Part shown: piece by piece, positions 2,862 to 34,661 of the stretch
Position numbering within the stretch: position 1 is the first letter of the stretch
Layout of the letters: every line of letters begins with the position of its first letter
Virus record (IMG/VR): IMGVR_UViG_3300033144_002427
Span: 1 to 37,359 of that record
Direction: 5' to 3' (one strand)
DNA: 37,359 bases
Origin: a virus
The notes under the pieces: generated by a model
The model's database searches: none
What the model was told of the DNA's origin: nothing
The model's input: only the letters and a program-made list of their open reading frames with translations
Position numbers and translations under genes: made by a program

Positions 2862-3696
2862 TGATTTTCTCCTTGATATCTTCTACATTATCTAAACCTA
2901 TTGCTTCTTTACAATAAGTAATTTTATCTATTAATTCTATATTACGAAGTATATTTTCTTCAAACTTATTTGTATTCTGTATATATACAGCTTTACCGGG
3001 AATAGGTATATTATCATATACTTCAAAGGCATCGCCGTATTGTTTTAATAACGTATGTGCTCTCTTTGGACCTACTCCTGGAATACCTGAAACATTGTCT
3101 TTGCCGCCTACCAACACTTTAACACTTAAAGCCATTTCATGTGGATATTCATAATACTCACTCCAATTTTCCAGTGTATACTCTTTTCTAGTAACGTAAG
3201 AGAACCTATGTACATTGGGCATTAATAAAAGATCCCAGTCTTTATCTGAGGATATTAACCATATATCATCTTCAATATCTTTAAGAATATAATGGGTTAG
3301 ATAAGCTGCAATATCGTCTGCCTCTACTCCGTGATATTTAAGAATAGTGAAGCTACTCTTACAATATTCCATAGCCTCTTCATATCCTTTAAAGAAATCT
3401 AGGAAATCTTGTTTCTCTTCTTCGGTTTGTTGTGCTACTTTAGCTTCTCTATCCGCTTTATATTCAGGGTATAAATTCTTCCTATAAAAAGATTTTCCCC
3501 AATCGCAAGTAAGTATAACTCTACTAGCAGAGTAAGATTTAGCTAATGATTTAACTGTTTTATAATAATCTGCTGCGAAGTCAAATCTTCCTACGTGTTT
3601 ATATCTGAAGGCTAAATTGAGGGAATCAACTATAAGTATATTATTACCTTTAACTTCCTGAGCCTCTTCTAATTCATATATTGGTTTTCCTATCAT
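2848..3696 (-). CDS. 5'-3' exonuclease / flap endonuclease (T5 D15-type)
   Basis: A 282-residue member of the FEN-1/RNase H (T5 D15, T4 Rnh) nuclease family, which removes RNA primers and 5' flaps. Acidic metal-binding motifs are visible in order: VDSLNLAFR near residue 24, EADDIAAYLTHY near 125, and SSDKDWDLL near 150. The helix-hairpin-helix segment GIPGVGPKRAHTLLKQYG follows at about 205-222 and binds DNA. It overlaps the membrane-protein gene upstream and the reductase gene downstream by a few bases, placing it in one long operon. Its place next to the D14-like nuclease is as in T5. Confidence 0.93.
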   Translation of the reverse strand: MIGKPIYELEEAQEVKGNNILIVDSLNLAFRYKHVGRFDFAADYYKTVKSLAKSYSASRVILTCDWGKSFYRKNLYPEYKADREAKVAQQTEEEKQDFLDFFKGYEEAMEYCKSSFTILKYHGVEADDIAAYLTHYILKDIEDDIWLISSDKDWDLLLMPNVHRFSYVTRKEYTLENWSEYYEYPHEMALSVKVLVGGKDNVSGIPGVGPKRAHTLLKQYGDAFEVYDNIPIPGKAVYIQNTNKFEENILRNIELIDKITYCKEAIGLDNVEDIKEKISGLY

Positions 3697-4693: not shown

Positions 4694-5267
4694 TCCATCT
4701 ATTTCCTTTTTTCATATTTTGTAATGGAGTTAACCATTGTAAATTAGTTTCTATATGTAAACCAGAAATATACTTACCATTTAAAGGTATTATATGATCT
4801 ACATGGTAGCCCTTAGGACAACATTCATACCAAAAATTTATTTTTTCTTGATTAGCCCAACTTGGGGTTCTATTTAATTTTGCCGCTCTATAATTAGCTT
4901 TTATAATTTTTCTTTTCGAAGGGTTTTCTTTGCTCCAATTTTTACTATTTTTATTATTACACTTTCTACATAGAGGTTGTAGCTTATAAATTGTATTACC
5001 TTTATTAAATTCTTTTATGTTTTTTATAGATTCACATTGTGTACAATACATCTTATCTTTCATAAATATAATATATTTATATAATTTAGCCTTTTTAGGC
5101 TTATCTGGAAACCATTTATCGGAAAATCTAGTATAAGCACTCGTTCCCATATTTGCTTGTTTACTACCATAAATACTTAATATAATATTACTCTTATTTC
5201 TATTATTGTATAAAGGTATATCATTATCAATAAAGTATTGTCTCACATACTTCTCTACTTCAATCAT
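4686..5267 (-). CDS. Freestanding HNH homing-type endonuclease
   Basis: About 193 residues. A central zinc ribbon (CTQC then CRKC, roughly residues 75-103) is followed by an HNH module with GYHVDHIIPLNG, then the ETNLQWLTPLQN helix and a basic C-terminus. Such enzymes cut DNA and promote their own spread between related phages. It sits between the SbcC and D14-like genes, interrupting a block I recall as contiguous in T5, so it is probably a mobile insertion. I start at ATG 5267 because GAGG sits seven bases upstream and the codon overlaps the end of sbcC; a TTG at 5273 is an alternative. A decayed relative of its C-terminus lies at 26647-26733. Confidence 0.9.
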   Translation of the reverse strand: MIEVEKYVRQYFIDNDIPLYNNRNKSNIILSIYGSKQANMGTSAYTRFSDKWFPDKPKKAKLYKYIIFMKDKMYCTQCESIKNIKEFNKGNTIYKLQPLCRKCNNKNSKNWSKENPSKRKIIKANYRAAKLNRTPSWANQEKINFWYECCPKGYHVDHIIPLNGKYISGLHIETNLQWLTPLQNMKKGNRWNG

Positions 5268-7065
5268 TTTCAATCCTCGATATGTGATGTTCTTTTATTA
5301 TATTAATACGAGGAATCAAAGGATGACTCCAGTCATGGCTTACTATAAACGTATTCAAATCTTCCTTAAGCAAAATTTCGGAAAGTTTTTCCTTCCCTTC
5401 AGCATCTATGACACCAATGACTTCATCTAAAAATAATAAGTTAATTTTTGTGGAGGTTAAACTTGATAGGATGTTGCGTATGGCCAGAATTGTAGCAATA
5501 TTTACCCTAGCCCTTTCTCCAGAACTTAAATTTGAGATCGAAGTTATATTACCAATATCGTCGAGAACTTCGATGTTAAGTTTTTCTCCTGAGAGTTTAA
5601 AGTAAATTTGAAAATATGTTAATTCAGCTAAATATGTATTTATCTTTTTTTCTAGTTCTTTAACTGAAGATTCTATTTTATAACTAACTAAACCATTAGT
5701 ACCAAAAGTTTTCTTCAGTAATTCCATAATATCAGCTAAATTCTCGTTCTCTACTAATACTATATTTTTTTCTAGTAAATCTTTTCTCATTTTTTCTAAC
5801 TGTGCTTTTACAACATCTACCTTTGAATTGTGGGCTGATATCTTTAGATTTTTAATTTCTGTAGATTTTATGAGTGTTTCAGCTTTAGAAATTTGAGCAC
5901 GAATTTTAATTCGTTTAGCTTTTAATTCGTTTAAATCTAAAGTTTTAGTAGGTATACTATTATCTATAAGTCTATTTAGTTCTACAAAATCTGCTTTTTG
6001 TTTTTTATATTTTAGTATTTCTGCTGTAATGTTATCTGTATCCGGTATTTTATCCCAAAGACTTGCTAATTTTGCCTTTTCTTTATCTCTACAACTTATC
6101 TCTGCATTAAGCATATCTTCCCAATCTTTTCTGTTTACTACTTGTAAACATTCCGGACATTCCCCCTCTACTTTACTAAGTTTGCTTATTTTTTGTTGAT
6201 GAATATTATATTGATGTTCTATTACACGTACTTGGGCACGTAACTCATTGATACCTGGATTAGGTTCTGCTGGCGCTGTACCTAAATAATACTTAGAGTC
6301 TAATAAGTTTAACTTAGCTATATAACTCTTATTTAATATTATCTTTCTATTGATACTATTTATATCTGTAATTTGTTCGTGTAGTTTTCTTTCTTCTACA
6401 TACCACTCTTTGGGCACATCTATACAATTTAATAAATCTTGTTTAATAAAACTCATATTCTCGTTTTCATTTATCCAAGCTTCTATTGTACTAATTCCAC
6501 CTTCTAATCCTGTGATAACAGAGTTTAAATCTCTTACTTTAGTTTTAAATAATTCATGTAGTTCTAAATAACGATCTAACTGTAATAAACTGATAAGAAA
6601 CTTTTTTCGATTCGTATCTGTAGCAGTTAAGAAATCTAGGCTGTCTGTAGAATGTTGATATATTAACTGACAGAATATTTTAAAATCGGTCACGCCTATT
6701 ATATTAGCTAAAGTTTTGTAGGTATTAAGAGAAGTATGGCTAGATATATCTTCTTCATTTTTATATAGTCGAAACTTAAGATTTGTTTTTCTATCAAGTT
6801 CCACAGTATATTCATCATTATCTTTTACGAAATCTAACTTAATATAATAACCTTTTCTACTTGTTTTATTATTAGTTATATCTTGCTTTTTTATATTCTT
6901 AATATTTTTTCCGTAAAGTACTTCTTGCAGCATAAGAGATATAGAAGTTTTACCAGCACCATTTGGACCTACTAATTGAGTTAGTGGTTCTTTATTTAAA
7001 TCCATAACATTCTGCTCTCCGTAGGAGAAACAGTTTGACCAAGTTAATTTTTTAAGTGTTAGCAT
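5260..7065 (-). CDS. SbcC/Rad50-like recombination ATPase (T4 gp46, T5 D13 type)
   Basis: A 601-residue SMC-like ATPase. The Walker A motif GPNGAGKTS lies at about residues 33-41. Long coiled-coil arms flank a zinc-hook CPEC motif near residue 300. The ABC signature LSSGERARVN and the Walker B stretch LLFLDEVIGV are near the C-terminus, followed by the switch histidine in VSHDWS. It forms a complex with the Mre11-like product of the next gene upstream to process DNA ends for recombination-dependent replication. Its start overlaps that gene by 14 bases, which implies coupled translation and matched amounts. Confidence 0.95.
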   Translation of the reverse strand: MLTLKKLTWSNCFSYGEQNVMDLNKEPLTQLVGPNGAGKTSISLMLQEVLYGKNIKNIKKQDITNNKTSRKGYYIKLDFVKDNDEYTVELDRKTNLKFRLYKNEEDISSHTSLNTYKTLANIIGVTDFKIFCQLIYQHSTDSLDFLTATDTNRKKFLISLLQLDRYLELHELFKTKVRDLNSVITGLEGGISTIEAWINENENMSFIKQDLLNCIDVPKEWYVEERKLHEQITDINSINRKIILNKSYIAKLNLLDSKYYLGTAPAEPNPGINELRAQVRVIEHQYNIHQQKISKLSKVEGECPECLQVVNRKDWEDMLNAEISCRDKEKAKLASLWDKIPDTDNITAEILKYKKQKADFVELNRLIDNSIPTKTLDLNELKAKRIKIRAQISKAETLIKSTEIKNLKISAHNSKVDVVKAQLEKMRKDLLEKNIVLVENENLADIMELLKKTFGTNGLVSYKIESSVKELEKKINTYLAELTYFQIYFKLSGEKLNIEVLDDIGNITSISNLSSGERARVNIATILAIRNILSSLTSTKINLLFLDEVIGVIDAEGKEKLSEILLKEDLNTFIVSHDWSHPLIPRINIIKEHHISRIEND

Positions 7066-27655: not shown

Positions 27656-27731
27656 TGGCACCCCGAGCAGGACTCGAACCCGCGACCGATGGAGTAGAAA
27701 TCCATTGCTCTTCCAACTGAGCTACCGAGGC
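27656..27731 (-). tRNA. tRNA-Arg(TCT)
   Basis: Full cloverleaf with encoded CCA. The anticodon loop TTTCTAC gives TCT, reading AGA. The acceptor stem pairs along all seven positions with several wobbles, and the T arm is GCGGG/CCTGC. The 5' end begins one base after the TAA of the 107-residue gene. Confidence 0.95.
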
Positions 27732-28055
27732 TTAATAAATGTCCCACCACACGCCTTTATAGCGTGCACGGTAATGTGAATCATCATAGTCAAAGTCTAC
27801 GCCAAGTACTATATGTGGACGAAGTTGGTCGCGTGCGACCCGGCGTCCTATGCGATTGACTCGATTAAAATATTCATGCGTACCTACAGTATAGTTCCTA
27901 GATTCAGTCCCATGTAATAGATAGTCTCTTTCCAGACGTTCTATGTATCTAGGTGCCCATGTGTAATCGGGGTAGTTATCTATCCATTCACGTATTTCTT
28001 TTTTAGTGCTGCCCCAATAGTGTTTATAGGGTACACCTCTTTTTGTTCTTGCCAT
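27732..28055 (-). CDS. Basic aromatic-rich small protein, unknown function
   Basis: A 107-residue protein rich in Arg, Tyr and Trp, ending in WWDIY. It has no known motif. GGAG lies eight bases before the ATG. It is inserted exactly between tRNA-Arg(TCG) and tRNA-Arg(TCT), with its stop codon touching the tRNA 5' end. Confidence 0.7.
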   Translation of the reverse strand: MARTKRGVPYKHYWGSTKKEIREWIDNYPDYTWAPRYIERLERDYLLHGTESRNYTVGTHEYFNRVNRIGRRVARDQLRPHIVLGVDFDYDDSHYRARYKGVWWDIY

Positions 28056-28103
28056 GTTAATCTCCAGTAAGTTTATTTACCATCGCATAACATTCTCCTG
28101 TAG

Positions 28104-28180
28104 TGGCCTCGCCGAAGGGACTCGAACCCCCATATACCTGGTTCGAAGCCAGGGCCGTATCCAGTTCCGGTCACGGCGAG
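28104..28180 (-). tRNA. tRNA-Arg(TCG)
   Basis: Full cloverleaf with CCA. The acceptor stem CTCGCCG/CGGCGAG is perfect, and the anticodon arm CCTGG-CTTCGAA-CCAGG gives TCG, reading CGA and possibly CGN. Confidence 0.96.
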
Positions 28181-28185
28181 ATTGT

Positions 28186-28261
28186 TGGTGGAACCCCACG
28201 GAATTGAACCGTATCCCTTAGTGCTTCAAACTAATGTGCAGACCACTTACACCAGAGTTCC
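28186..28261 (-). tRNA. tRNA-Phe(GAA)
   Basis: Full cloverleaf with CCA. The anticodon loop is TTGAAGC. Only five bases separate its CCA end from tRNA-Arg(TCG), so they are one precursor. Confidence 0.95.
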
Positions 28262-28267
28262 ATATCG

Positions 28268-28363
28268 CTAAGATAGCGTAATTGGTATAACGAAAGCTGA
28301 TATAGCTAACATTATTAAAATTGTGTATAGTGTATATCCCACAACCTTATTTATCTTGTTCAT
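28268..28363 (-). CDS. Possible 31-residue membrane peptide
   Basis: A short frame starts inside the end of the preceding small gene and stops six bases before tRNA-Phe. It encodes MNKINK followed by about 24 hydrophobic residues (VVGYTLYTILIMLAISAFVI and on), a single transmembrane helix. A purine-rich GAGAG site lies about 12 bases upstream. It accounts for an otherwise empty gap. The pattern is convincing for a membrane microprotein, but the frame is short. Confidence 0.5.
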   Translation of the reverse strand: MNKINKVVGYTLYTILIMLAISAFVIPITLS

Positions 28364-28493
28364 CTTCTTTTATCTCTCCAAAATCGTATGCGTGATCGCC
28401 TTCCATCATAAAGTACCAGCGAGCGTCTTTTTCATTTTCTGCTTCGAACACTTTACGTTCTCCGCCTATATATTCTATCCAATATTTCTTCAT
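28347..28493 (-). CDS. Small acidic protein, unknown function
   Basis: A 48-residue protein starting at ATG 28493 after AGGGAATAGG; a longer frame through tRNA-Ile is unlikely. It has a YWIEYIGGERKVFEAENEKD start and an acidic tail. Its leader (GGGAATAGGA) is the same as that of the HD-domain gene, hinting at a shared insertion style for small genes after tRNAs. Confidence 0.65.
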   Translation of the reverse strand: MKKYWIEYIGGERKVFEAENEKDARWYFMMEGDHAYDFGEIKEDEQDK

Positions 28494-28507
28494 TCCTATT
28501 CCCTGTT

Positions 28508-28585
28508 TGGTACTGCGAGTTGGACTCGAACCAACGACCGACGGCATATAAGACCGCAGCTCTAACCTGACTGAGCTACCGCAGC
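28508..28585 (-). tRNA. tRNA-Ile(TAT)
   Basis: Cloverleaf with CCA. The anticodon loop CTTATAT gives TAT, reading the AUA codon that many bacteria serve with a lysidine-modified CAT tRNA instead. The acceptor stem has terminal wobble pairs. Confidence 0.93.
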
Positions 28586-28586
28586 A

Positions 28587-29072
28587 TTACTTATATTTCT
28601 CTATAATCTTTGCAAGTTCAATAGGTACTCCACCTAGTACGTCTACACAGACATTTATATAACGTCTGTCTTGAATACTTTTTTGGTGTACGTGTCCGTG
28701 AATATTATACCTATCTCTTAGCTCATTTGGATGAATAGGACAGTGACTTAACCAATATCCCTTATACTTACTGAACCAAGTAATCTTATAAAAGTATTTT
28801 TGATACTCCTCTAACTTAAATGTATCGTGATTACCTGGTAGTAATATTTTATTACCATTCATCTGTCCGATTAACTTAAGTTTATCTAAATCAAAACATA
28901 CATCCCCCAGTACATATACTATATCTTTTTTATTTGTAACAACAGAGTTCCATTGCTCTACTAGCCAACGGTCATGTTCATCTACAGTCTCACCATAGCG
29001 ATGACCTTGGGCGAACTTAAGAATATTCTTATGCCCTATATGTAGATCGCTTATAAAAAATATTTTACTCAT
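28587..29072 (-). CDS. Calcineurin-like metallophosphoesterase
   Basis: About 161 residues from ATG 29072, just after tRNA-Leu. Metal-binding motifs are in order: ISDLHIGHKN, LGDVCFD, LLPGNHD, LSHCPIHP and NIHGHVH. The size and motif set fit small phage phosphoesterases of the YfcE/MJ0936-like class, which act on phosphodiesters or nucleotides. The start with weak AACAGAG was chosen because the frame upstream is tRNA sequence. Confidence 0.9.
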   Translation of the reverse strand: MSKIFFISDLHIGHKNILKFAQGHRYGETVDEHDRWLVEQWNSVVTNKKDIVYVLGDVCFDLDKLKLIGQMNGNKILLPGNHDTFKLEEYQKYFYKITWFSKYKGYWLSHCPIHPNELRDRYNIHGHVHQKSIQDRRYINVCVDVLGGVPIELAKIIEKYK

Positions 29073-29088
29073 CTCTGTTTCATTTGTT

Positions 29089-29165
29089 TGGTAGGGATGA
29101 ACGGATTCGAACCGATACTGAACTGGGCTTAAACCAGATGCCTCTGCCAATTGGGCCACATCCCC
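29089..29165 (-). tRNA. tRNA-Leu(TAA) with short variable loop
   Basis: CCA is encoded, the acceptor GGGGATG/CATCCCT is paired, and the anticodon loop TTTAAGC gives TAA for UUA. The variable loop is only about five bases (TCAGT), whereas bacterial tRNA-Leu normally has a long variable arm. The D arm (GCCCAATTGGCAGAGGC) closely resembles that of tRNA-Leu(TAG) at 34585-34661. Confidence 0.88.
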
Positions 29166-29169
29166 ATAG

Positions 29170-29385
29170 TTATTTTATAATACCCAAAGCTGTTCTAATT
29201 TCATGTTGAGCAGCCTTGTGTCCTGCTCTGTAAGCATCATTGCACATTTTGGCAACCATATCTGCTTTCTTCTCACTGGAGAAAATGCGATAATGGCAGA
29301 TAGTGCCCGCATAAAACCCAAAACCTACCCCTGGCCCCTCTACTGCATATTCTAGCTTAGAATTTATAATACTTCGATATTTCAT
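29170..29385 (-). CDS. Small protein, unknown function
   Basis: A 71-residue protein with a glycine-rich GPGVGFGFYAGTICHYRIF segment and a helical C-terminus. No family recognised. It lies between the SleB-like gene and tRNA-Leu(TAA). Confidence 0.65.
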   Translation of the reverse strand: MKYRSIINSKLEYAVEGPGVGFGFYAGTICHYRIFSSEKKADMVAKMCNDAYRAGHKAAQHEIRTALGIIK

Positions 29386-29388
29386 TTT

Positions 29389-29763
29389 TTACTCTATATA
29401 AAATATATGTTCGCCAATCTTAGCGACCATTTGCATTTCTTTTGCCCAATATGGTTTTACATACAAGGCGTGGTAGTGCATTACTCCTTTAAGATCATTA
29501 TGTCCTGATCCCCCTAATACACCTTTAGCAACCATTTGTGCTCGTTGCCATGCTTCTTCATGTTGTGGTACATCCGACTTACCATCCCAGTACCATGAAA
29601 ATTGTTTGTGCTGATTGACTACGCCACATACTGTATCTGGGTAATCTGGGCTTACTACTCTATTCATTGTTACTTGAGCTACAGCAACTTGTCCAGCTAT
29701 ACTCTGATTTTGTGCCTCGAAATAAACATTCATAGCTAGACACATCATAACTAAATTAATCAT
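29389..29763 (-). CDS. SleB/Hydrolase_2-type cell-wall hydrolase
   Basis: About 124 residues from ATG 29763, which follows GAGGG and lies just past tRNA-Cys. Right after a short hydrophobic N-terminus is the family core AMNVYFEAQNQSIAGQVAVA, with the catalytic-type Glu, then TMNRV, CGVVNQHKQFSWYWDG and HYHALYVKPYWA. The family cleaves peptidoglycan. It is separate from the lysis genes at the left end, so it could aid virion entry, lysis or remodelling. It lacks a peptidoglycan-binding domain. Confidence 0.88.
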   Translation of the reverse strand: MINLVMMCLAMNVYFEAQNQSIAGQVAVAQVTMNRVVSPDYPDTVCGVVNQHKQFSWYWDGKSDVPQHEEAWQRAQMVAKGVLGGSGHNDLKGVMHYHALYVKPYWAKEMQMVAKIGEHIFYIE

Positions 29764-29777
29764 ATATACCCTCGTAT

Positions 29778-29853
29778 TGGAAGGACAGGTCGGATCCGAG
29801 CCGACATTCTCGGGATTTGCAATCCCGCGCATAACCATTTCTGCCACTGTCCC
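29778..29853 (-). tRNA. tRNA-Cys(GCA)
   Basis: Cloverleaf with CCA. The anticodon arm CGGGA-TTGCAAA-TCCCG gives GCA. The discriminator is U73, as expected for Cys tRNAs. Confidence 0.96.
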
Positions 29854-29862
29854 TAAATAAAT

Positions 29863-29938
29863 TGGCTGACCGAGTAGGATTCGAACCTACACTCGCAAGG
29901 ATCAAAACCTTGTGCATTACCAATTATGCTACCGGCCA
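29863..29938 (-). tRNA. tRNA-Gln(TTG)
   Basis: Cloverleaf with CCA. The anticodon arm CAAGG-TTTTGAT-CCTTG gives TTG. Its 5' part overlaps the last codons of the small gene at 29924-30112 by 15 bases. Confidence 0.95.
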
Positions 29939-30112
29939 ATTTTCATCGTATATGATTTTTATCACTTCATCATTAGAATCTCTCAACTCTATTCTTTGAG
30001 TAATGCCACCATGTACTATACAGCTATTAGCGTAAGTTTCTGCAGAATTAAGGTCTATACTATTTCTTAACCTTATCCACTCGTCTTGTCTTTTCAACCA
30101 TACACTAACCAC
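29924..30112 (-). CDS. Small protein ending inside tRNA-Gln
   Basis: A 62-residue protein from a GTG directly after the stop of the HD-domain gene, with GGGAT upstream. It contains a helix and a short beta hairpin (RIELRDSNDEVIKIIYDENW). Its stop lies within the tRNA-Gln 5' half, so processing of the tRNA would cut this mRNA. Function unknown. Confidence 0.6.
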   Translation of the reverse strand: MVSVWLKRQDEWIRLRNSIDLNSAETYANSCIVHGGITQRIELRDSNDEVIKIIYDENWPVA

Positions 30113-30577
30113 TTAAAATCCCATTTCTTCTAATACTTGGGCTTTTTCTACTAAATAAATCTTTGCAAATCCTGGATCATGTGCAACAATACTGGCCGTG
30201 TTATCGGCCAAGTCGCACCACTTGATCAACTTTGCGTCTACATGAACAGTACTGAGACGTTTAGCTTCTAAGGCTTTTCGCTTTGCTCTATTCATATGTG
30301 GATAATTTTCAGGAGTAAAATGATCTGTAAGATCATATACTAACCCTGCTACTCTTTCCCCGAAAATCTCACCAATTTCGTCAATCGTTACTGCAGTATC
30401 TTCTACAGTATCGTGAAGAAAAGCAGCAGCAATCATTTCGGCATCTTGCACCAATTTAGCTACCCCTCTAGCAACATTATAACAATGTGTGAAATACGGT
30501 TCCCCCGTATATCTACGTTTCTGATTGTAATGCGCTTCTTTAGCGATCCATTCTGCTTTTTGAATTATGTTTTTCAT
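30113..30577 (-). CDS. HD-domain alarmone hydrolase-like protein (SpoT-HD/MESH1 type)
   Basis: A 154-residue stand-alone HD phosphohydrolase. Visible motifs are KRRYTGEPYFTHCYNVA near residues 20-36, AFLHDTVEDT near 52 with the HD metal pair, and KWCDLADNTASIV near 120. This is the layout of the ppGpp-hydrolase half of RelA/SpoT and of small alarmone hydrolases, with no synthetase or TGS domain. It would lower ppGpp or a related nucleotide during infection. The start follows AGGGAATAGGA just after tRNA-Ser(TGA). Confidence 0.87.
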   Translation of the reverse strand: MKNIIQKAEWIAKEAHYNQKRRYTGEPYFTHCYNVARGVAKLVQDAEMIAAAFLHDTVEDTAVTIDEIGEIFGERVAGLVYDLTDHFTPENYPHMNRAKRKALEAKRLSTVHVDAKLIKWCDLADNTASIVAHDPGFAKIYLVEKAQVLEEMGF

Positions 30578-30590
30578 TCCTATTCCCTAT

Positions 30591-30677
30591 TGGCGGAGGA
30601 TGAAGGAGTCGAACCCTTACCTATTATGATACCCTGGTATTCAACACCAGTTGCCGGCCAACCCAGCGGCACCCTCC
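30591..30677 (-). tRNA. tRNA-Ser(TGA)
   Basis: Class II cloverleaf with CCA, a long variable arm containing TATCATAATAGGTA, and anticodon loop GTTGAAT giving TGA. Acceptor GGAGGGT/ATCCTCC with discriminator G. Confidence 0.95.
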
Positions 30678-30685
30678 AAAATTAA

Positions 30686-30734
30686 GTCCTGCGAGGTAAT
30701 TCCTCTTAACTACTCACCCCTAACGCGTCAGGAC
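30686..30734 (-). other. Small structured element between two Ser tRNAs
   Basis: GTCCTG and CAGGAC form a perfect six-pair closing stem. Inside it is a second perfect stem, GAGG/CCTC with a five-base loop. There is no CCA and no anticodon-like loop. It may be a tRNA remnant or an RNA-processing element. I see no gene in the 30678-30747 gap. Confidence 0.5.
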
Positions 30735-30747
30735 ACACACGATGCAT

Positions 30748-30834
30748 TGGTGGAAGACGTGAGACTCGAACTCACACACCTATTATGATGTACGGTTTAG
30801 CAAACCGCTGCGTTATCCTTTGCGCCAGTCTTCC
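30748..30834 (-). tRNA. tRNA-Ser(GCT)
   Basis: Class II cloverleaf with CCA. The acceptor GGAAGAC/GTCTTCC is perfect, and the anticodon loop TTGCTAA gives GCT. Its variable arm shares ATCATAATAGGT with tRNA-Ser(TGA), so the two arose by duplication. The discriminator reads A rather than the usual G. Confidence 0.93.
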
Positions 30835-30838
30835 ATTT

Positions 30839-30910
30839 ATTAAAAAGTATTCCTCTGGGAACTACCCTTAAGAAAGCCTCGTTACCTTTCAGCAAAGAAT
30901 ACTTTTTAAT
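30839..30910 (-). repeat. 14-base perfect inverted repeat with folded loop
   Basis: ATTAAAAAGTATTC (30839-30852) and its exact complement (30897-30910) enclose 44 bases that themselves can form two hairpins (GGG/CCC and GAAAG/CTTTC), giving a three-way junction. On the minus strand the right arm ends in TTTTT, so it may act as a second terminator after the tmRNA, or be an independent structured RNA. Confidence 0.7.
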
Positions 30911-30938
30911 AAAAGGTGGGTCTTTTTAAGTGAGACCC
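30908..30938 (-). terminator. Terminator after the tmRNA coding piece
   Basis: Minus-strand stem GGGTCT/AGACCC with a nine-base loop is followed by ACCTTTTATT. It is placed about 60 bases after the tag stop codon and probably marks the 3' end of the tmRNA precursor. It overlaps the neighbouring inverted repeat by three bases. Confidence 0.75.
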
Positions 30939-30939
30939 T

Positions 30940-31305
30940 TAACACTTGAATATTTCTGTTGACAGGCTATCCCATACCCCGCATAAGCTAAGCTGTTTAG
31001 GCCGCCATTGCAAGTTCGACATAGGCATCCTCAGATGCTCCCATTATAGGGAAGTCGATTATGTTATCATTTCCGATTACATTGTTAATACTTACGGTAT
31101 CAAACGAGTTGTCCATTTAGCTTTCGTATGTCAATCTATTCCAAGTCAGCCCCATCAGATACACTCTAATCCCCCTCCCCTGCAAGGGCGGCTTCCATGT
31201 TGCAGCACAGTGAGCGATTGCCCATGAAAGTGTACGTGGTGGAGCTGAAGGGATTCGAACCCTTGTCTTGTCCATCTATTTCTAAATTTCATACAACTAT
31301 ATGTT
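30940..31305 (-). ncRNA. ssrA: Circularly permuted two-piece tmRNA
   Basis: tmRNA rescues stalled ribosomes by acting as tRNA-Ala and then as a short mRNA. Here the order is permuted. First comes the acceptor piece (about 31305-31237): one P2 strand, T arm AAGGG-TTCGAAT-CCCTT and CAGCTCC-A-CCA. Then an 83-base intervening segment, then the coding piece starting GGGGCTG at 31153. GGGGCTG pairs with CAGCTCC along seven positions, with G3-U70, the alanine identity pair. P2 pairs 31120-31115 with 31287-31282 and 31112-31107 with 31298-31293. The tag frame ends ELAMAA-TAA at 30997; the resume codon is GCA at 31038 or GGA at 31041, giving ASEDAYVELAMAA with or without a leading G. Flanks of the intervening segment (31227-31234 with 31160-31167) also pair. 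The 3' limit and the outer 5' end are approximate. Confidence 0.9.
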
Positions 31306-31498
31306 TAGCACAATGTTTGCTTATAGCAACTGTATTGCCATAAATACGTAGTAGTACATTATTCTTTGTACTACCTATACATTTTATCTTTGCACCTTCA
31401 ATAAGACCTAATGTCATAATTCGGAGAATACAATTACAGGATGTATCTACTTTCTTTATTGTTACTGTACTTCCTACTTCTAATTCATTTAGTCTCAT
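31289..31498 (-). CDS. FeoA-like SH3-fold protein
   Basis: A 69-residue protein matching the FeoA domain along its length: MRLNELEVGSTVTIKKV, then RIMTLGLIEGAKIKCIG, then LLRIYGNTVAISKHCAKHI. FeoA is a small cytosolic partner of the ferrous-iron transporter FeoB, and the same fold forms the C-terminal domain of DtxR-type regulators; no feoB is in the window. AAAGG lies about seven bases before the ATG. The gene is wedged between rnpB and ssrA: its ribosome-binding site overlaps the 3' strand of the rnpB P1 helix, and its last codons form a P2 strand of the tmRNA. Translation and RNA maturation should therefore conflict. Confidence 0.8.
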   Translation of the reverse strand: MRLNELEVGSTVTIKKVDTSCNCILRIMTLGLIEGAKIKCIGSTKNNVLLRIYGNTVAISKHCAKHIVV

Positions 31499-31500
31499 TT

Positions 31501-31746
31501 ATTACCTTTATAGCCGAGATTCTGTATTAATACACATTCATCTATTGGCCACTACCCGTCGTCATTAGGGCTTCGGTTCCCTTCGAACTGTTTGTGTTGC
31601 AGGCTATATACGCAGTAATAGTGAGGAAGGTGGGACTTGAACCCACTTCAGCTTTCGCTTACCAAGTATGTTTCAACTCTGCATTTCCTCTTCTGCGCCT
31701 AAGCGCCTGTCCCGAGCTTCCTCTCCGTAGAGCGTGTAATTGTAAT
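31501..31746 (-). ncRNA. rnpB: RNase P RNA, compact phage-encoded form
   Basis: This is the catalytic RNA that cuts 5' leaders from pre-tRNAs. The 5' conserved block GAGGAAGCTCGGGA (31723-31710) and the 3' block AGATGAATG...ACAGAATCTCGGCT (31543-31512) match the universal RNase P core. P4 forms between 31718-31710 and 31519-31512 with the single bulged U at the expected place. P1 (31746-31742 with 31505-31501) and P2 (31738-31734 with 31535-31531) close the molecule. A GGTAAGCGAAAG block followed by the hairpin GTGGG-TTCAAGT-CCCAC fits the P10-P12 region. At about 246 bases it is much shorter than the E. coli RNA (377), so several peripheral helices are missing. I see no rnpA; the host protein would be needed. 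Confidence 0.9.
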
Positions 31747-31747
31747 T

Positions 31748-31819
31748 TGGCAAACGAGGTCGGAGTTGAACCGACTCGACAAGGTTTTGGAGACCTGCCC
31801 GCTCCCCAGCTGCCTCGAA
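31748..31819 (-). tRNA. tRNA-Trp(CCA), degenerate
   Basis: CCA is encoded, the T arm GTCGG-TTCAACT-CCGAC is perfect, and the anticodon loop CTCCAAA is typical for Trp. The acceptor stem has two T-T mismatches and the D region is about three bases short. Its CCA end lies one base from the first pairing base of rnpB. Confidence 0.75.
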
Positions 31820-31821
31820 TG

Positions 31822-31897
31822 TGGTAGATCAGATTGGATTCGAACCAACAAATACTCGCGTATCAGACGAGCCTCTTAACCGCTTGAGTACTGATCT
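31822..31897 (-). tRNA. tRNA-Ile(GAT)
   Basis: Cloverleaf with CCA. Acceptor AGATCAG/CTGATCT is perfect, and the anticodon arm CTCGT-CTGATAC-GCGAG gives GAT. Two bases separate its CCA from the 5' end of tRNA-Trp. Confidence 0.94.
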
Positions 31898-31905
31898 TTA
31901 ATTTT

Positions 31906-31975
31906 TGGAGACTCGGGGCGGAATCGAACCGCCCACCACAAGGATTGAAAGCCTCTAGTCCACCGTTGCCGAATC
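31906..31975 (-). tRNA. Glu-like tRNA(TTC), D arm reduced
   Basis: The acceptor GATTCGG/CCGAGTC and the T arm GGCGG-TTCGATT-CCGCC are good and CCA is encoded. The loop CTTTCAA would give TTC. Only about 12 bases lie between acceptor and anticodon stem, so there is no normal D arm, and the anticodon stem is weak. It may be a decayed or unconventional tRNA. A complete tRNA-Glu(TTC) lies at 33386-33460. Confidence 0.55.
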
Positions 31976-32278
31976 TATCCATTTTGTATATTCTGCCATA
32001 CTCTTATTAGAGTATAGCTTCACCATCGCAGTTACTCTCGCCCAGACACTTACTGGGATATCTTGCGGGTATCTTTCGATTTTCGCAAGCGCTGTGCCCT
32101 TCGAAAATGCATAGGCAATATGAGTAGCACGACACTCAGGACGTACACCATAAATACGATGGAGATAAAGCCACTCTCTAGTGTCTCCATTGTTTCGTTT
32201 CTCTTCTGTTCTAATAATCCTAGACTCTTGGGCTAGGTGTTTTGCTTTTACTTTTAAAGCTAATTTCCGATTTATCAT
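31955..32278 (-). CDS. Unknown basic protein ending inside the Glu-like tRNA
   Basis: A 107-residue basic helical protein with no recognised motif. Its ATG at 32278 lies only four bases past the -10 box of the promoter at 32282-32310, upstream of where transcription should begin, so either another promoter is used or translation starts further in. The stop codon lies 21 bases inside the Glu-like tRNA gene. Confidence 0.5.
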   Translation of the reverse strand: MINRKLALKVKAKHLAQESRIIRTEEKRNNGDTREWLYLHRIYGVRPECRATHIAYAFSKGTALAKIERYPQDIPVSVWARVTAMVKLYSNKSMAEYTKWIDSATVD

Positions 32279-32281
32279 TAT

Positions 32282-32310
32282 ATTATACCTTATTTTAATT
32301 TGAATTTCAA
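32282..32310 (-). promoter_or_regulatory. Promoter for the rnpB-feoA-ssrA segment
   Basis: TTGAAA (32310-32305), a 17-base spacer and TATAAT (32287-32282) on the minus strand. Downstream in order are the 107-residue gene, three tRNAs, rnpB, the FeoA-like gene and the tmRNA, then a terminator at 30908-30938. These define a candidate transcription unit. Confidence 0.85.
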
Positions 32311-32372
32311 GTTTATTTTAAATAAGGTATTTAAGGCGGTGCTCTAACTTCAGTTCATTTTCCTTCCTAGAT

Positions 32373-32447
32373 TGGTGGTGATGGTCGGAGTTGAACCGAC
32401 GACTTACAAGATATGAGCTTGCTGCTTAACCGTTCAGCTTCATCACC
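32373..32447 (-). tRNA. tRNA-Met(CAT), elongator-type
   Basis: Acceptor GGTGATG/CATCACC is perfect with CCA, and the anticodon loop CTCATAT gives CAT. The first pair is G-C, so it is not an initiator. An Ile tRNA with lysidine at CAT cannot be excluded, but tRNA-Ile(TAT) is already present. Confidence 0.93.
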
Positions 32448-32448
32448 T

Positions 32449-32811
32449 TTAACATGTTTTTGCTATTATATTAGAAAAAGTACTTTGTCTGTTTTCATCA
32501 TCTGTTACAGTCATATAAAACCAATGTCTACCTTCAGTTAGTTTTGGTATTTCCCATTGAACTAAAGCATTATTAGTTATATCAACTACTCTTTCTAATG
32601 TAGTCTCTTCTACACTAGGTTCGCTATTGATGAAGATAGTATATTTAAAAATATCTTCTATCAATAACTCTGATCCATCTGTTCTTTCTGCTGGAGTTTC
32701 CCATATTACTAACGCATCGCACCCTATAGTTGGGTCAGGGGGATTAGGAGAATTCCCACCCCCACAACCTACTAAAATAAAAAATGCTGCGCCTAAGTAC
32801 TTATTGTACAC
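32449..32811 (-). CDS. Lipoprotein with Fn3-like fold
   Basis: About 120 residues from a GTG start. A signal peptide ends in the lipobox FILVGC, giving lipidated Cys16, followed by a GGG/Pro linker and an all-beta domain with ALVIWETPAERTDGSELLIED and HWFYMTVTDDENRQSTFSN, the pattern of a fibronectin type III module. The gene overlaps its upstream partner by 11 bases. Surface lipoproteins in phages can block superinfection (T5 Llp is one), but the role here is inferred. Confidence 0.75.
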   Translation of the reverse strand: MYNKYLGAAFFILVGCGGGNSPNPPDPTIGCDALVIWETPAERTDGSELLIEDIFKYTIFINSEPSVEETTLERVVDITNNALVQWEIPKLTEGRHWFYMTVTDDENRQSTFSNIIAKTC

Positions 32812-33208
32812 TTAACAGTGTAGGCGGAAGTGGTACTCTGCCTAGATCTGCTGCGCTGTATGTTCTATTTGCTTCATTACTATATTGAGATTCTGATGCA
32901 TAATCAGTAGAAGTAGCTGTAGCTACAAAATAGTAAGTTCCAGGTACTCCCTGTACACAAGTGCCTACATCTTGTACTGCTGCTTCTACCGCAGAACCTA
33001 CATCATATAAAAAGGGATAAGGTCCACCCTGTGTATCTCCACAATATAATCTATAACTAAGAATATCTGTAGCAGGTATTACGTTACCATCTTCATACTG
33101 AGTAGGTGCTGTCCAACTAAAATCTGAAACAGGGGCAGCAGATACTCCTAAACTAATTACTATGCTTACAGCTAATCCTGCTATAAACATTCCTATAACT
33201 TTCTTCAT
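32801..33208 (-). CDS. Secreted Fn3-like protein
   Basis: A 135-residue protein with a classical signal peptide (basic MKK, hydrophobic 4-22, ASA-type cleavage near VSAAP) and one Fn3-like domain: FSWTAPTQYEDGNVIPATD, then YRLYCGDTQGGPY, then GTYYFVATATSTDYASESQ. Two cysteines could form a disulfide outside the cytoplasm. It pairs with the downstream lipoprotein, which has the same domain style. Confidence 0.75.
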   Translation of the reverse strand: MKKVIGMFIAGLAVSIVISLGVSAAPVSDFSWTAPTQYEDGNVIPATDILSYRLYCGDTQGGPYPFLYDVGSAVEAAVQDVGTCVQGVPGTYYFVATATSTDYASESQYSNEANRTYSAADLGRVPLPPTLLSVQ

Positions 33209-33222
33209 TTATCGCTCCTAAT

Positions 33223-33299
33223 TGGTCTCAACGGTTCGATTCGAACGAACGACCTCTCGCTTCCAAGGCGAGAACTCTACCAGACTGAGCTACGCTGAG
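33223..33299 (-). tRNA. tRNA-Pro(TGG)
   Basis: Cloverleaf with CCA. The anticodon arm CTCGC-CTTGGAA-GCGAG gives TGG, and the T arm GTTCG/CGAAC is perfect. Confidence 0.95.
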
Positions 33300-33303
33300 A
33301 TTC

Positions 33304-33381
33304 TGGGGTATAAGACCGGACTCGAACCGGCATTTTCCTGAATCACAATCAGGGGACTTATCCAATTAGTCTACTTATACC
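33304..33381 (-). tRNA. tRNA-His(GTG)
   Basis: The anticodon arm CCTGA-TTGTGAT-TCAGG gives GTG. An extra G at position -1 faces C73, the hallmark of His tRNAs. CCA is encoded. Confidence 0.96.
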
Positions 33382-33385
33382 ATTG

Positions 33386-33460
33386 TGGTACACTGACGGG
33401 GAATCGAACCCCGATTGCCGGGTTGAAAACCCGGTGTCCTAACCATTAGACGACCGGTGC
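33386..33460 (-). tRNA. tRNA-Glu(TTC)
   Basis: The anticodon arm CCGGG-TTTTCAA-CCCGG gives TTC. T arm perfect and CCA encoded. One C-A mismatch lies in the acceptor stem. Confidence 0.93.
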
Positions 33461-33462
33461 AT

Positions 33463-33539
33463 TGGTAGGAGATGACGGAATCGAACCGCCGACCCTTGCC
33501 TTGTAAAAGCAACGCTCTACGCAACTGAGCTAATCTCCC
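33463..33539 (-). tRNA. tRNA-Val(TAC)
   Basis: Acceptor GGGAGAT/ATCTCCT with CCA. The anticodon loop TTTACAA gives TAC. Two bases separate it from tRNA-Glu. Confidence 0.95.
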
Positions 33540-33543
33540 AATT

Positions 33544-33618
33544 TGGCGACCTCGAACGGAGTCGAACCGTCACTTTACCGCTAGACAGGCGGTTGCACTA
33601 CCGTTATGCTACGAGGCC
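33544..33618 (-). tRNA. tRNA-Asp(GTC)
   Basis: Acceptor GGCCTCG/CGAGGTC with discriminator G and CCA. The anticodon loop CTGTCTA gives GTC. The stop of the hydrolase gene overlaps its 5' end by 10 bases. Confidence 0.95.
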
Positions 33619-34157
33619 AATATTTTATCTATAATTAGATAAAGTTTATTTGCTGTTTTTAAATCTTTAGATACTCTATGTCCACTATCTCTTACTATAG
33701 TCTTTGTAATATTATCTTTAGTAGGTATCATAGTTAAATGTTTCAATTCTATCTTTTCATTTCCACTTATAAAATGATATTGTGTTGTATCATTAAACTT
33801 TAAGTGTTTTACTTTCCAATTTTTTATTTCTTTAGCATACTGTATATATCTTTTATCCCAAGGTACTAGCGGAGGATATATAGAATATTGTGTTGCAAAA
33901 GCAATAACTTTACTTACTGGATAATCCATAGCAAACATAGTAGCATTAAATGCCCCCATACTATTTCCTATAGTAACTATCTCATGTGTAGGATCTAATC
34001 GTTCTATAATCTTTTTACTATTTAAAGTATTATACCAACTTCTACGTGTATCTTTTGCAAAAATTACATTATAACCTTTAGTAAGATTATAGAATTCTTT
34101 TACCTCTACACTTCCTGATCCATGTTTTATACCAGTAAAACTTATTATTGTTTTCAT
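33609..34157 (-). CDS. Small alpha/beta-hydrolase-like esterase
   Basis: A 182-residue protein. IGNSMGAFNATMFA near residues 63-76 is the nucleophile elbow (Gly-x-Ser-x-Gly-like, with Ser in GNSMGA), and the catalytic His would be in RDSGHRVSK near 160. The N-terminal strand TIISFTGIKHG provides the oxyanion-hole region. It may cleave an ester or thioester; the substrate is unknown. The 3' end enters tRNA-Asp. Confidence 0.75.
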   Translation of the reverse strand: MKTIISFTGIKHGSGSVEVKEFYNLTKGYNVIFAKDTRRSWYNTLNSKKIIERLDPTHEIVTIGNSMGAFNATMFAMDYPVSKVIAFATQYSIYPPLVPWDKRYIQYAKEIKNWKVKHLKFNDTTQYHFISGNEKIELKHLTMIPTKDNITKTIVRDSGHRVSKDLKTANKLYLIIDKILAS

Positions 34158-34161
34158 AAAT

Positions 34162-34221
34162 TTGTGAGCGACGCTTTTTCAGGAGTGCGCCCTCAATTCA
34201 ACTCCAATTGTTCACCAACGA
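34162..34221 (-). other. Structured spacer between hydrolase gene and tRNA-Asn
   Basis: On the minus strand GGTGA and TCAC close a region containing GGAGT/ACTCC and the small palindrome AGCGTCGCT. There is no CCA, T arm or reading frame. It resembles the 30686-30734 element in being a short folded block next to a tRNA. Function unknown. Confidence 0.35.
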
Positions 34222-34224
34222 ATT

Positions 34225-34308
34225 TGGCTCCGGGAAAAGGGGTCGAACCTTTGCTCTTGCGAGACCTCGGATTAACAGTCCGGTACATTACCACTCTGCC
34301 ATCCCGGA
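34225..34308 (-). tRNA. tRNA-Asn(GTT) with long variable arm
   Basis: Acceptor TCCGGGA/TCCCGGA, discriminator G, CCA, and the Asn-like anticodon stem-loop GGACTGTTAATCC. Between anticodon and T arms lies a 14-base variable arm containing a CTC-GCAA-GAG hairpin; bacterial Asn tRNAs have a short loop there. Confidence 0.88.
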
Positions 34309-34470
34309 TTAATTATTTGAACGTTCTGCTATTTTATCATCATTTAAACGTATAATTTCAGCTTCCATAGCTTCCATTCTTTCAACTGCACGTTCTACTA
34401 GTGTAGTTGGATATCCGTCCTTCTTGAGACGAATTGCAAATTCCCTTAATTCTTTTGTAAACTGACTCAT
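34309..34470 (-). CDS. Small charged helical protein
   Basis: About 53 residues from ATG 34470, which follows AAGGAAG; the longer frame would enter tRNA-Tyr. It is almost all helix with alternating acidic and basic residues. The stop codon is directly followed by tRNA-Asn. Function unknown. Confidence 0.65.
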   Translation of the reverse strand: MSQFTKELREFAIRLKKDGYPTTLVERAVERMEAMEAEIIRLNDDKIAERSNN

Positions 34471-34485
34471 TATACTTCCTTTGTT

Positions 34486-34578
34486 TGGTGGATGCGGATG
34501 GAATCGAACCATCACCCCGTCCAGCGGATTACGGATTTACAGTCCGCAGCGACTTAAGCCAATATTCGCCTCGCATCC
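34486..34578 (-). tRNA. tRNA-Tyr(GTA)
   Basis: Class II cloverleaf with long variable arm, perfect acceptor GGATGCG/CGCATCC, anticodon loop CTGTAAA and CCA. The D arm is longer than usual. Confidence 0.95.
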
Positions 34579-34584
34579 TATATT

Positions 34585-34661
34585 TGGTAGCCCTAGTCGG
34601 ATTCGAACCGACACTTTACGGAATCTAAACCCGCTCCCTCTGCCAATTGGGGTATAGGGCC
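34585..34661 (-). tRNA. tRNA-Leu(TAG) with short variable loop
   Basis: Acceptor GGCCCTA/TAGGGCT with CCA, and the anticodon loop TTTAGAT gives TAG for CUA. The variable loop is only five bases (AAAGT), unlike normal bacterial tRNA-Leu. The D arm resembles tRNA-Leu(TAA) at 29089-29165. The 5' G is shared with the stop codon of the gene before it. Confidence 0.88.

Follow-up and report, generated by a model that had tools for sequence, protein, structure and literature searches.

A phage RNase P RNA encoded within a tRNA array, with a tRNA-like element at the position of the specificity domain

The DNA analysed here, a 37,359-base virus record that we refer to as the window, encodes a ribonucleotide reductase, an SbcC-like protein, a helicase, a DNA polymerase, a primase and a DnaB-like protein, which constitute a phage replication module. 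Yersinia phage phiR2-01 is one of the phages whose DNA polymerases share about 41% identity with that of the window. A tRNA array occupies part of the minus strand, and inside it, where a preliminary description of this DNA had placed such a gene, the minus strand of this tailed phage (31746-31501) encodes an RNase P RNA of 246 nt. The RNA begins directly after the CCA end of a tRNA-Trp-like sequence; CCA is encoded in those window tRNAs whose ends were read. The closest relative, the viral stretch L065, is collinear with the window, and its RNase P RNA is flanked by a tmRNA and a tRNA-Trp. The blastn match between the two spans 31500-31746, within one base of the boundaries given in the preliminary description. 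The features of the array are as follows.

27656..34661, minus strand: tRNA array of 19 tRNAs surrounding the RNase P RNA (ARAGORN)
30997..31298, minus strand: permuted tmRNA of the same array and likely substrate (RF04321, 93.4 bits, E = 5.3e-17)
31501..31746, minus strand: RNase P RNA gene, comprising the catalytic domain and a tRNA-like insert (match to covariance model R1; same boundaries in L065)
31748..31821, minus strand: tRNA-Trp(CCA)-like sequence directly preceding the RNase P RNA (unreported by ARAGORN; L065 has a tRNA-Trp upstream)

Two other elements were observed nearby. A further tRNA-like sequence with a UUC anticodon, also unreported by ARAGORN, lies at 31906-31976 minus. A 69-aa frame with a FeoA domain (31289-31498 minus, Pfam 2.2e-12) lies between the permuted tmRNA and the RNase P RNA, which in the window ends just before it; the DNA of this frame is collinear in L065.

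On the minus strand, the elements of the RNA follow one another in the order P1, P2, P3, GAGGAAGCUCGGGAC, GCAACACAAACAG, CGGGUAGUGGC, UAGAUGAAUG, ACAGAAUCUCGGCUAUA and P1. The core strands GAGGAA (GAGGAAG...), AGAUGAAUG and ACAGAA are present together with the P1/P2/P3/P5/P15 frame and align to E. coli rnpB. The individual elements, all on the minus strand, are given below in 5' to 3' order with the evidence for each; A3 is an alignment of 28 distinct viral sequences.

31742..31746, minus strand: P1 5' strand AUUAC (sequence; family complementarity over 28 homologues)
31734..31738, minus strand: P2 5' strand UACAC (P2 98.6% paired in 28 sequences, 4 of 5 pairs covary)
31721..31732, minus strand: P3 hairpin CUCU-ACGG-AGAG (P3 97.6% paired, 2 of 3 pairs covary)
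31709..31723, minus strand: conserved region I, GAGGAAGCUCGGGAC, including the P4 5' strand and bulged U 31715 (P4 covariation)
31718-31710, minus strand: P4 5' strand AGC-U-CGGGA (eight pairs with UCUCGGCU, bulged U at 31715)
31705..31709, minus strand: P5 5' strand (P5 100% paired in 28 sequences)
31698..31702, minus strand: P6 pseudoknot 5' strand UUAGG (family-wide complementarity)
31693..31697, minus strand: P7 5' strand (two double compensatory changes relative to L065)
31623..31690, minus strand: tRNA-like element replacing the specificity domain, core 31660-31689, T-arm 31630-31646 (comparison with KVP40, L042, L043, L045, L046 and L065)
31611..31615, minus strand: P7 3' strand (comparison with L065)
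31600..31604, minus strand: P5 3' strand (P5 covariation analysis)
31588..31600, minus strand: J5/15 (CR-IV-like), GCAACACAAACAG, with the P15 base CAC at 31594-31596 (P15a covariation)
31565..31569, minus strand: P6/P17 partner CCUAA, in the P15 loop (family-wide complementarity)
31550..31552, minus strand: P15 base 3' strand GUG (P15a covariation)
31535..31544, minus strand: J18/2-type strand UAGAUGAAUG (conserved in A3; motif also in E. coli rnpB)
31531..31535, minus strand: P2 3' strand GUGUA (sequence, P2 covariation)
31509..31525, minus strand: conserved region V, ACAGAAUCUCGGCUAUA, including the P4 3' strand (sequence, A3 alignment)
31512-31519, minus strand: P4 3' strand UCUCGGCU (P4 99.6% paired, 6 of 8 pairs covary)
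31501..31505, minus strand: P1 3' strand GUAAU (sequence)

The RNA consists of two parts, a core of some 170-180 nt that represents the catalytic domain and a tRNA-like insert of 68 nt. The catalytic domain retains P1-P5, P7, P15 and conserved regions I, IV and V. The specificity domain, which in bacterial RNase P recognises the T-loop, is reduced to a stem consisting of P7 and an apical element, and P8-P14 and CR-II/CR-III are absent. The preliminary description had reported conserved 5' and 3' blocks, a P4 with its bulged U, and closure of the molecule by P1 and P2; all of these were located, with P1 reaching significance only across the family. It had also called the RNA a stripped-down form of about 246 bases. 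The length was correct, but the molecule is not uniformly shrunken, being a core with an insert. In the L15 region, the loop GAAGGGAACC (31584-31575) has a GG run but no clear GGU, the motif that in class A L15 pairs with the tRNA CCA.

Neither the gathering-threshold scan nor the scan at E<=10 reported any Rfam RNase P family for the window RNA, which fails the RF00010 gathering score of 100 bits. Since these scans were negative, a covariance model of our own, R1, was built from alignment A1, which contains 13 compact viral RNAs and excludes the window. R1 matched the window RNA with 95.2 bits (E = 8.6e-29), the second-best match in the window having an E-value of only 0.36; these E-values are rough because calibration was shortened. 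The same model found E. coli rnpB at the correct place (E = 2.6e-7) and also matched the class A RNAs of two viral contigs, L002 and L011 (Rfam score 168 bits). In the other direction, RF00010 scored compact relatives of the window RNA at 38-55 bits. Its matches to the RNA of Stenotrophomonas phage DLP6 (54.7 bits, E = 2.2e-14) and to L055 (E = 7.8e-11) and L058 (E = 7.8e-9) covered the full model length below gathering, and the archaeal model RF00373 matched L006, also below gathering, with E = 4.8e-13. Because the window RNA is linked to R1, R1 to E. coli rnpB, and the relatives to RF00010 or RF00373, the chain of homology is closed from both directions. The absence of an RNase P match in Rfam had been proposed as grounds for rejecting the assignment, and formally it counts against it. 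It is not decisive, since clear relatives match at E = 2e-14 to 8e-9 and still fall below the cut-offs. The curated models probably miss these RNAs as they expect a full specificity domain. Single-sequence folding of the window RNA was unremarkable (z = -1.7) and uninformative.

Covariation was examined in A3 over 27 base pairs from P2, P3, P4, P5, P15a and P15. Standard pairs filled 97% of the paired cells, two-sided changes were seen in 22 of the 27 pairs, and the covariation exceeded that in all 500 shuffles and in every slid control. When the partners were slid by 1-3 columns, pairing fell to 27-42%. In P15a, which is 94% paired, CAC/GUG, GCC/GGU and CGC/GCG replace one another. The complementarity of P1 against shuffled strands was significant over the 28 homologues (Fisher combined p = 3e-28), as was that of P6 family-wide (Fisher p = 8.5e-16), although the sequences are not independent. 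By itself, the 5-bp P1 of the window is not significant, nor is its 5-bp P6 (p = 0.26), which is identical in L065. The P6 pseudoknot of the window RNA, which joins J5/7 to the P15-17 loop, therefore rests on family evidence and is unproven for this single sequence.

The comparison with L065 revealed five double compensatory changes, one in P4, two in P7, one in P15a and one in P15, in addition to a change from G-U to G-C in P4. A sixth two-sided difference, in P15, breaks pairing. An apparent break in P1 was due to a one-base alignment shift, ATTAC and GTAAT being present in both sequences. In the pairwise alignment the mean column identity was 84% over the core, while several flanking stretches match at 66-73%. 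The compensatory double changes, both between these two sequences and among the 28, indicate selection on structure. The preliminary description had allowed that loss of the core without covariation in homologous phages would refute it; the outcome was the opposite, with the core retained.

The insert contains a T-arm, GUGGG-UUCAAGU-CCCAC, and the core AGGAAAUGCAGAGUUGAAACAUACUUGGUA. The tRNA cluster of KVP40 has the same core and T-arm as a separate unannotated gene, with 93% identity over 29 bases, and such a separate gene is also found in L042, L043, L045 and L046. An Rfam scan at E<=10 gave a weak tmRNA report at the tRNA-like region of the window. The RNase P RNA of L065 lacks the tRNA-like core hairpin, while L046 holds both a full-length RNase P RNA and a separate tRNA-like gene. 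Judging by this comparison of sequences, an RNase P RNA and the tRNA-like gene seem to have been joined into a chimera in the window. T4 RNA C/D was considered as a source of the insert and gave no convincing similarity when aligned with the window.

The tRNA-like gene is conserved in phage tRNA arrays and consists of the core GGAAAUGCAGAGUUGNAACAUACUYGGUA, a variable hairpin and a T-arm, mostly without CCA. In KVP40 it corresponds to 178291-178426 (L040 2983-3118), where Rfam gave no match, and across 13 Vibrio phage records it is 98.5-100% identical.

A search with a CR-V pattern yielded 14 viral stretches, most of which contain RNase P RNAs by eye, within tRNA arrays, and three further RNase P patterns added more. 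Among these 14, only L002 and L011 passed Rfam gathering, L010 shows the 3' part only, and L013 was set aside as an apparently chance match inside coding sequence. With R1, matches at E<=1e-6 were obtained in 53 records, several of them near-duplicates and including the window, DLP6 and LR756502. R1 found nothing in the whole records of KVP40, T4 and two large phage contigs; KVP40 has the tRNA-like element only and was rejected as a carrier of an RNase P RNA. When relatives were sought by DNA similarity in a public phage collection, only DLP6 and one 642-kb genome were recovered, and the other queries returned none. The complete genome of the cultured phage DLP6 carries an unannotated compact RNase P RNA at KU682439.2 105772-106028 (L077 3959-4215), and LR756502.1, a 642-kb uncultured phage genome, carries an RNase P RNA at L079 2960-3177 (E = 2e-19) with no tRNA called within the surrounding 6 kb. 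The paper describing DLP6 mentions 30 tRNAs and does not mention RNase P. Among 84,980 species of bacteria and archaea, the compact-form pattern matched six times, and the model backed none of these matches. Within the viral family the P4 sequence varies widely, P16 and P18 are mostly absent, and the compact relatives mostly carry a short hairpin at the apex.

Several members of the family showed features of their own. DLP6 also has an unannotated permuted tmRNA (L077 1025-1246). By eye, an open frame of 45 codons sits within the apical hairpin of the L026 RNase P RNA (3180-3546); it begins with GTG, includes a hydrophobic stretch and has a Shine-Dalgarno-like AGGAG. In L021 and L024 a tRNA-like sequence with a CCA end is, by eye, inserted in the P18 arm, which makes them a second, separate case of a tRNA-like sequence nested in an RNase P RNA. 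L019 has tandem RNase P RNAs, and the copy located 5' of 4900-5109 minus apparently lacks the 3' part. L058, which has a compact RNase P RNA, also contains a GOLLD RNA at 5662-6168 (RF02032, 151.6 bits).

The association with tRNA genes extends beyond the window. In a set of 44 loci, tRNA genes were present in the same stretch at 41, almost all on the same strand, and the nearest tRNA lay within 300 nt at 33 and within 50 nt at 23. These counts lack a formal control and come from loci that were not a random selection. We searched for a homologue of RnpA (PF00825) in 36 plus 12 viral records, including the complete DLP6 genome, and found none, while RnpA was detected in control genomes; many of the records from metagenomes may be incomplete. 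Since no RnpA was found in these 48 records, the protein partner is presumably host RnpA, and dependence on it is likely.

The observations, namely homology, a conserved and covarying structure, location in the array and the failure to detect RnpA in the records searched, strongly support the identification of the window RNA as a phage RNase P RNA within a tRNA array. We consider it probable, with good but not complete confidence, that it is a genuine RNase P RNA which would join host RnpA and cleave the leaders of phage pre-tRNAs and pre-tmRNA; that it is transcribed, binds RnpA, is catalytic and serves in infection is inferred. Co-transcription with the tRNA array is most likely, because the RNA starts directly after the tRNA-Trp-like CCA end. 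The transcript would assemble with the host RnpA protein, the resulting holoenzyme would remove the 5' leaders of phage pre-tRNAs and pre-tmRNA, and the phage enzyme may add to or replace host RNase P during infection. On this inferred function, it is plausible that the phage would not depend on host rnpB. Against the proposal stand the missing or replaced specificity domain, the lack of an Rfam match to the window RNA, the shortness of its P1 and P6, neither of them significant by itself, the P15 difference from L065 that breaks pairing, and the absence of expression or activity data.

The main rival to this proposal is that the RNA acts as a decoy, a homologue that has ceased to process phage tRNAs and, by binding the host's RnpA or pre-tRNA, reduces host RNase P activity in infected cells. 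Loss of the specificity domain and the failure to find RnpA in the searched phage records fit such a role, for which there is a parallel in the reduced tmRNA of phage DS6A that inhibits host tmRNA (PMC11915505). However, the catalytic core strands and the bulged U of P4 are conserved beyond what a protein decoy needs, and the phages carry many tRNAs that themselves require 5' maturation, so we regard the decoy as unlikely. About equally doubtful is an elaboration of the processing role, in which the tRNA-like element was recruited as a replacement specificity domain or a built-in pseudo-substrate; the chimeric ribozyme would be tuned to phage pre-tRNAs, and a dedicated viral RNase P would mature the phage array, possibly refractory to host control.

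We think it very unlikely that a host rnpB was captured and has since lost its function, leaving the RNA as a decaying remnant. The small size, the inserts in L026 and L021/L024 and the 3'-truncated extra copy in L019 could be taken as signs of decay, but the covariation largely refutes this reading, and the core remains better conserved against L065 than several of its flanks. That the record is bacterial DNA or chimeric, and the RNA a host gene, might be supposed from the metagenomic origin of the contig and from the ordinary class A RNAs of a few contigs (L002, L011). This is scarcely tenable given the phage replication module of the window and the lack of model-supported matches to the compact-form pattern in the bacterial and archaeal species scanned, and it is refuted by the presence of the same family in the complete genome of a cultured phage, DLP6, as well as in the 642-kb phage genome. 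Finally, positions 31623-31690 are indeed tRNA-like, are common to KVP40 and others and drew the weak tmRNA report, which could imply a tRNA-like RNA or degenerate tRNA whose resemblance to RNase P is incidental. Such a possibility can be ruled out, since the flanking 170-180 nt hold the whole catalytic core detected by R1, the pairs covary, and the RNase P RNA found in L065 lacks the tRNA-like core.

Few ribozymes are as widespread as RNase P RNA, and it has been treated as a cellular housekeeping gene. The preliminary description knew of no established phage example within a tRNA array, and we found no report of a phage-encoded RNase P RNA in 5.39 million open-access full texts, a search whose scope left out most subscription papers and all preprints. 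A 2020 paper on huge phages and a 2026 review of jumbo phages do not mention one. The RNAs described here form a recurrent viral family, present in dozens of phages including a cultured one and largely missed by standard annotation. They suggest that there are viruses equipped with a tRNA-processing ribozyme of their own, although its activity is inferred; such phages would carry a processing enzyme for their tRNA arrays beyond the tRNAs alone. For structure-function studies the family would offer minimal RNase P RNAs of bacterial type that occur naturally, and DLP6 would allow an immediate test.

The window RNA can be compared with several known systems. Like T4 RNA C/D and phage tmRNAs, it is a stable RNA other than a tRNA in a phage tRNA cluster; T4 differs in that no RNase P core was found there and its RNA C/D are not convincingly similar to the window. 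The diverged RNase P RNAs of CPR bacteria also fall below Rfam thresholds and lack several peripheral helices, sometimes P12, but they are cellular genes and not phage-encoded (PMC8172020). Type P RNase P RNA of Pyrobaculum (Lai et al. 2010, cited in PMC4919922) likewise consists of the catalytic domain only, with the specificity domain nearly absent, and PMC4919922 describes that a cell can rely on an RNA of this kind. Type P is an archaeal cellular gene with archaeal proteins, whereas the window RNA is viral, of bacterial type, and has a tRNA-like element at the position of the specificity domain. The carriers are phages, DLP6 infects a bacterium, and the best Rfam family is RF00010 for DLP6, L055 and L058 and RF00373 for L006. 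With class A RNA (rnpB/M1 RNA, RF00010), a fellow member of the RNase P RNA superfamily (Rfam clan CL00002), the window RNA shares conserved regions I, IV and V, the P1-P5 topology, a P4 with a bulged U, and P15. It differs in having no standard specificity domain (P8-P14, CR-II/III), and the phage family differs in its location in tRNA arrays, scores below Rfam gathering, the general absence of P16 and P18, and a variable P4. By homology and core structure the window RNA is an RNase P RNA; by Rfam threshold and specificity domain it is not class A, and it is viral.
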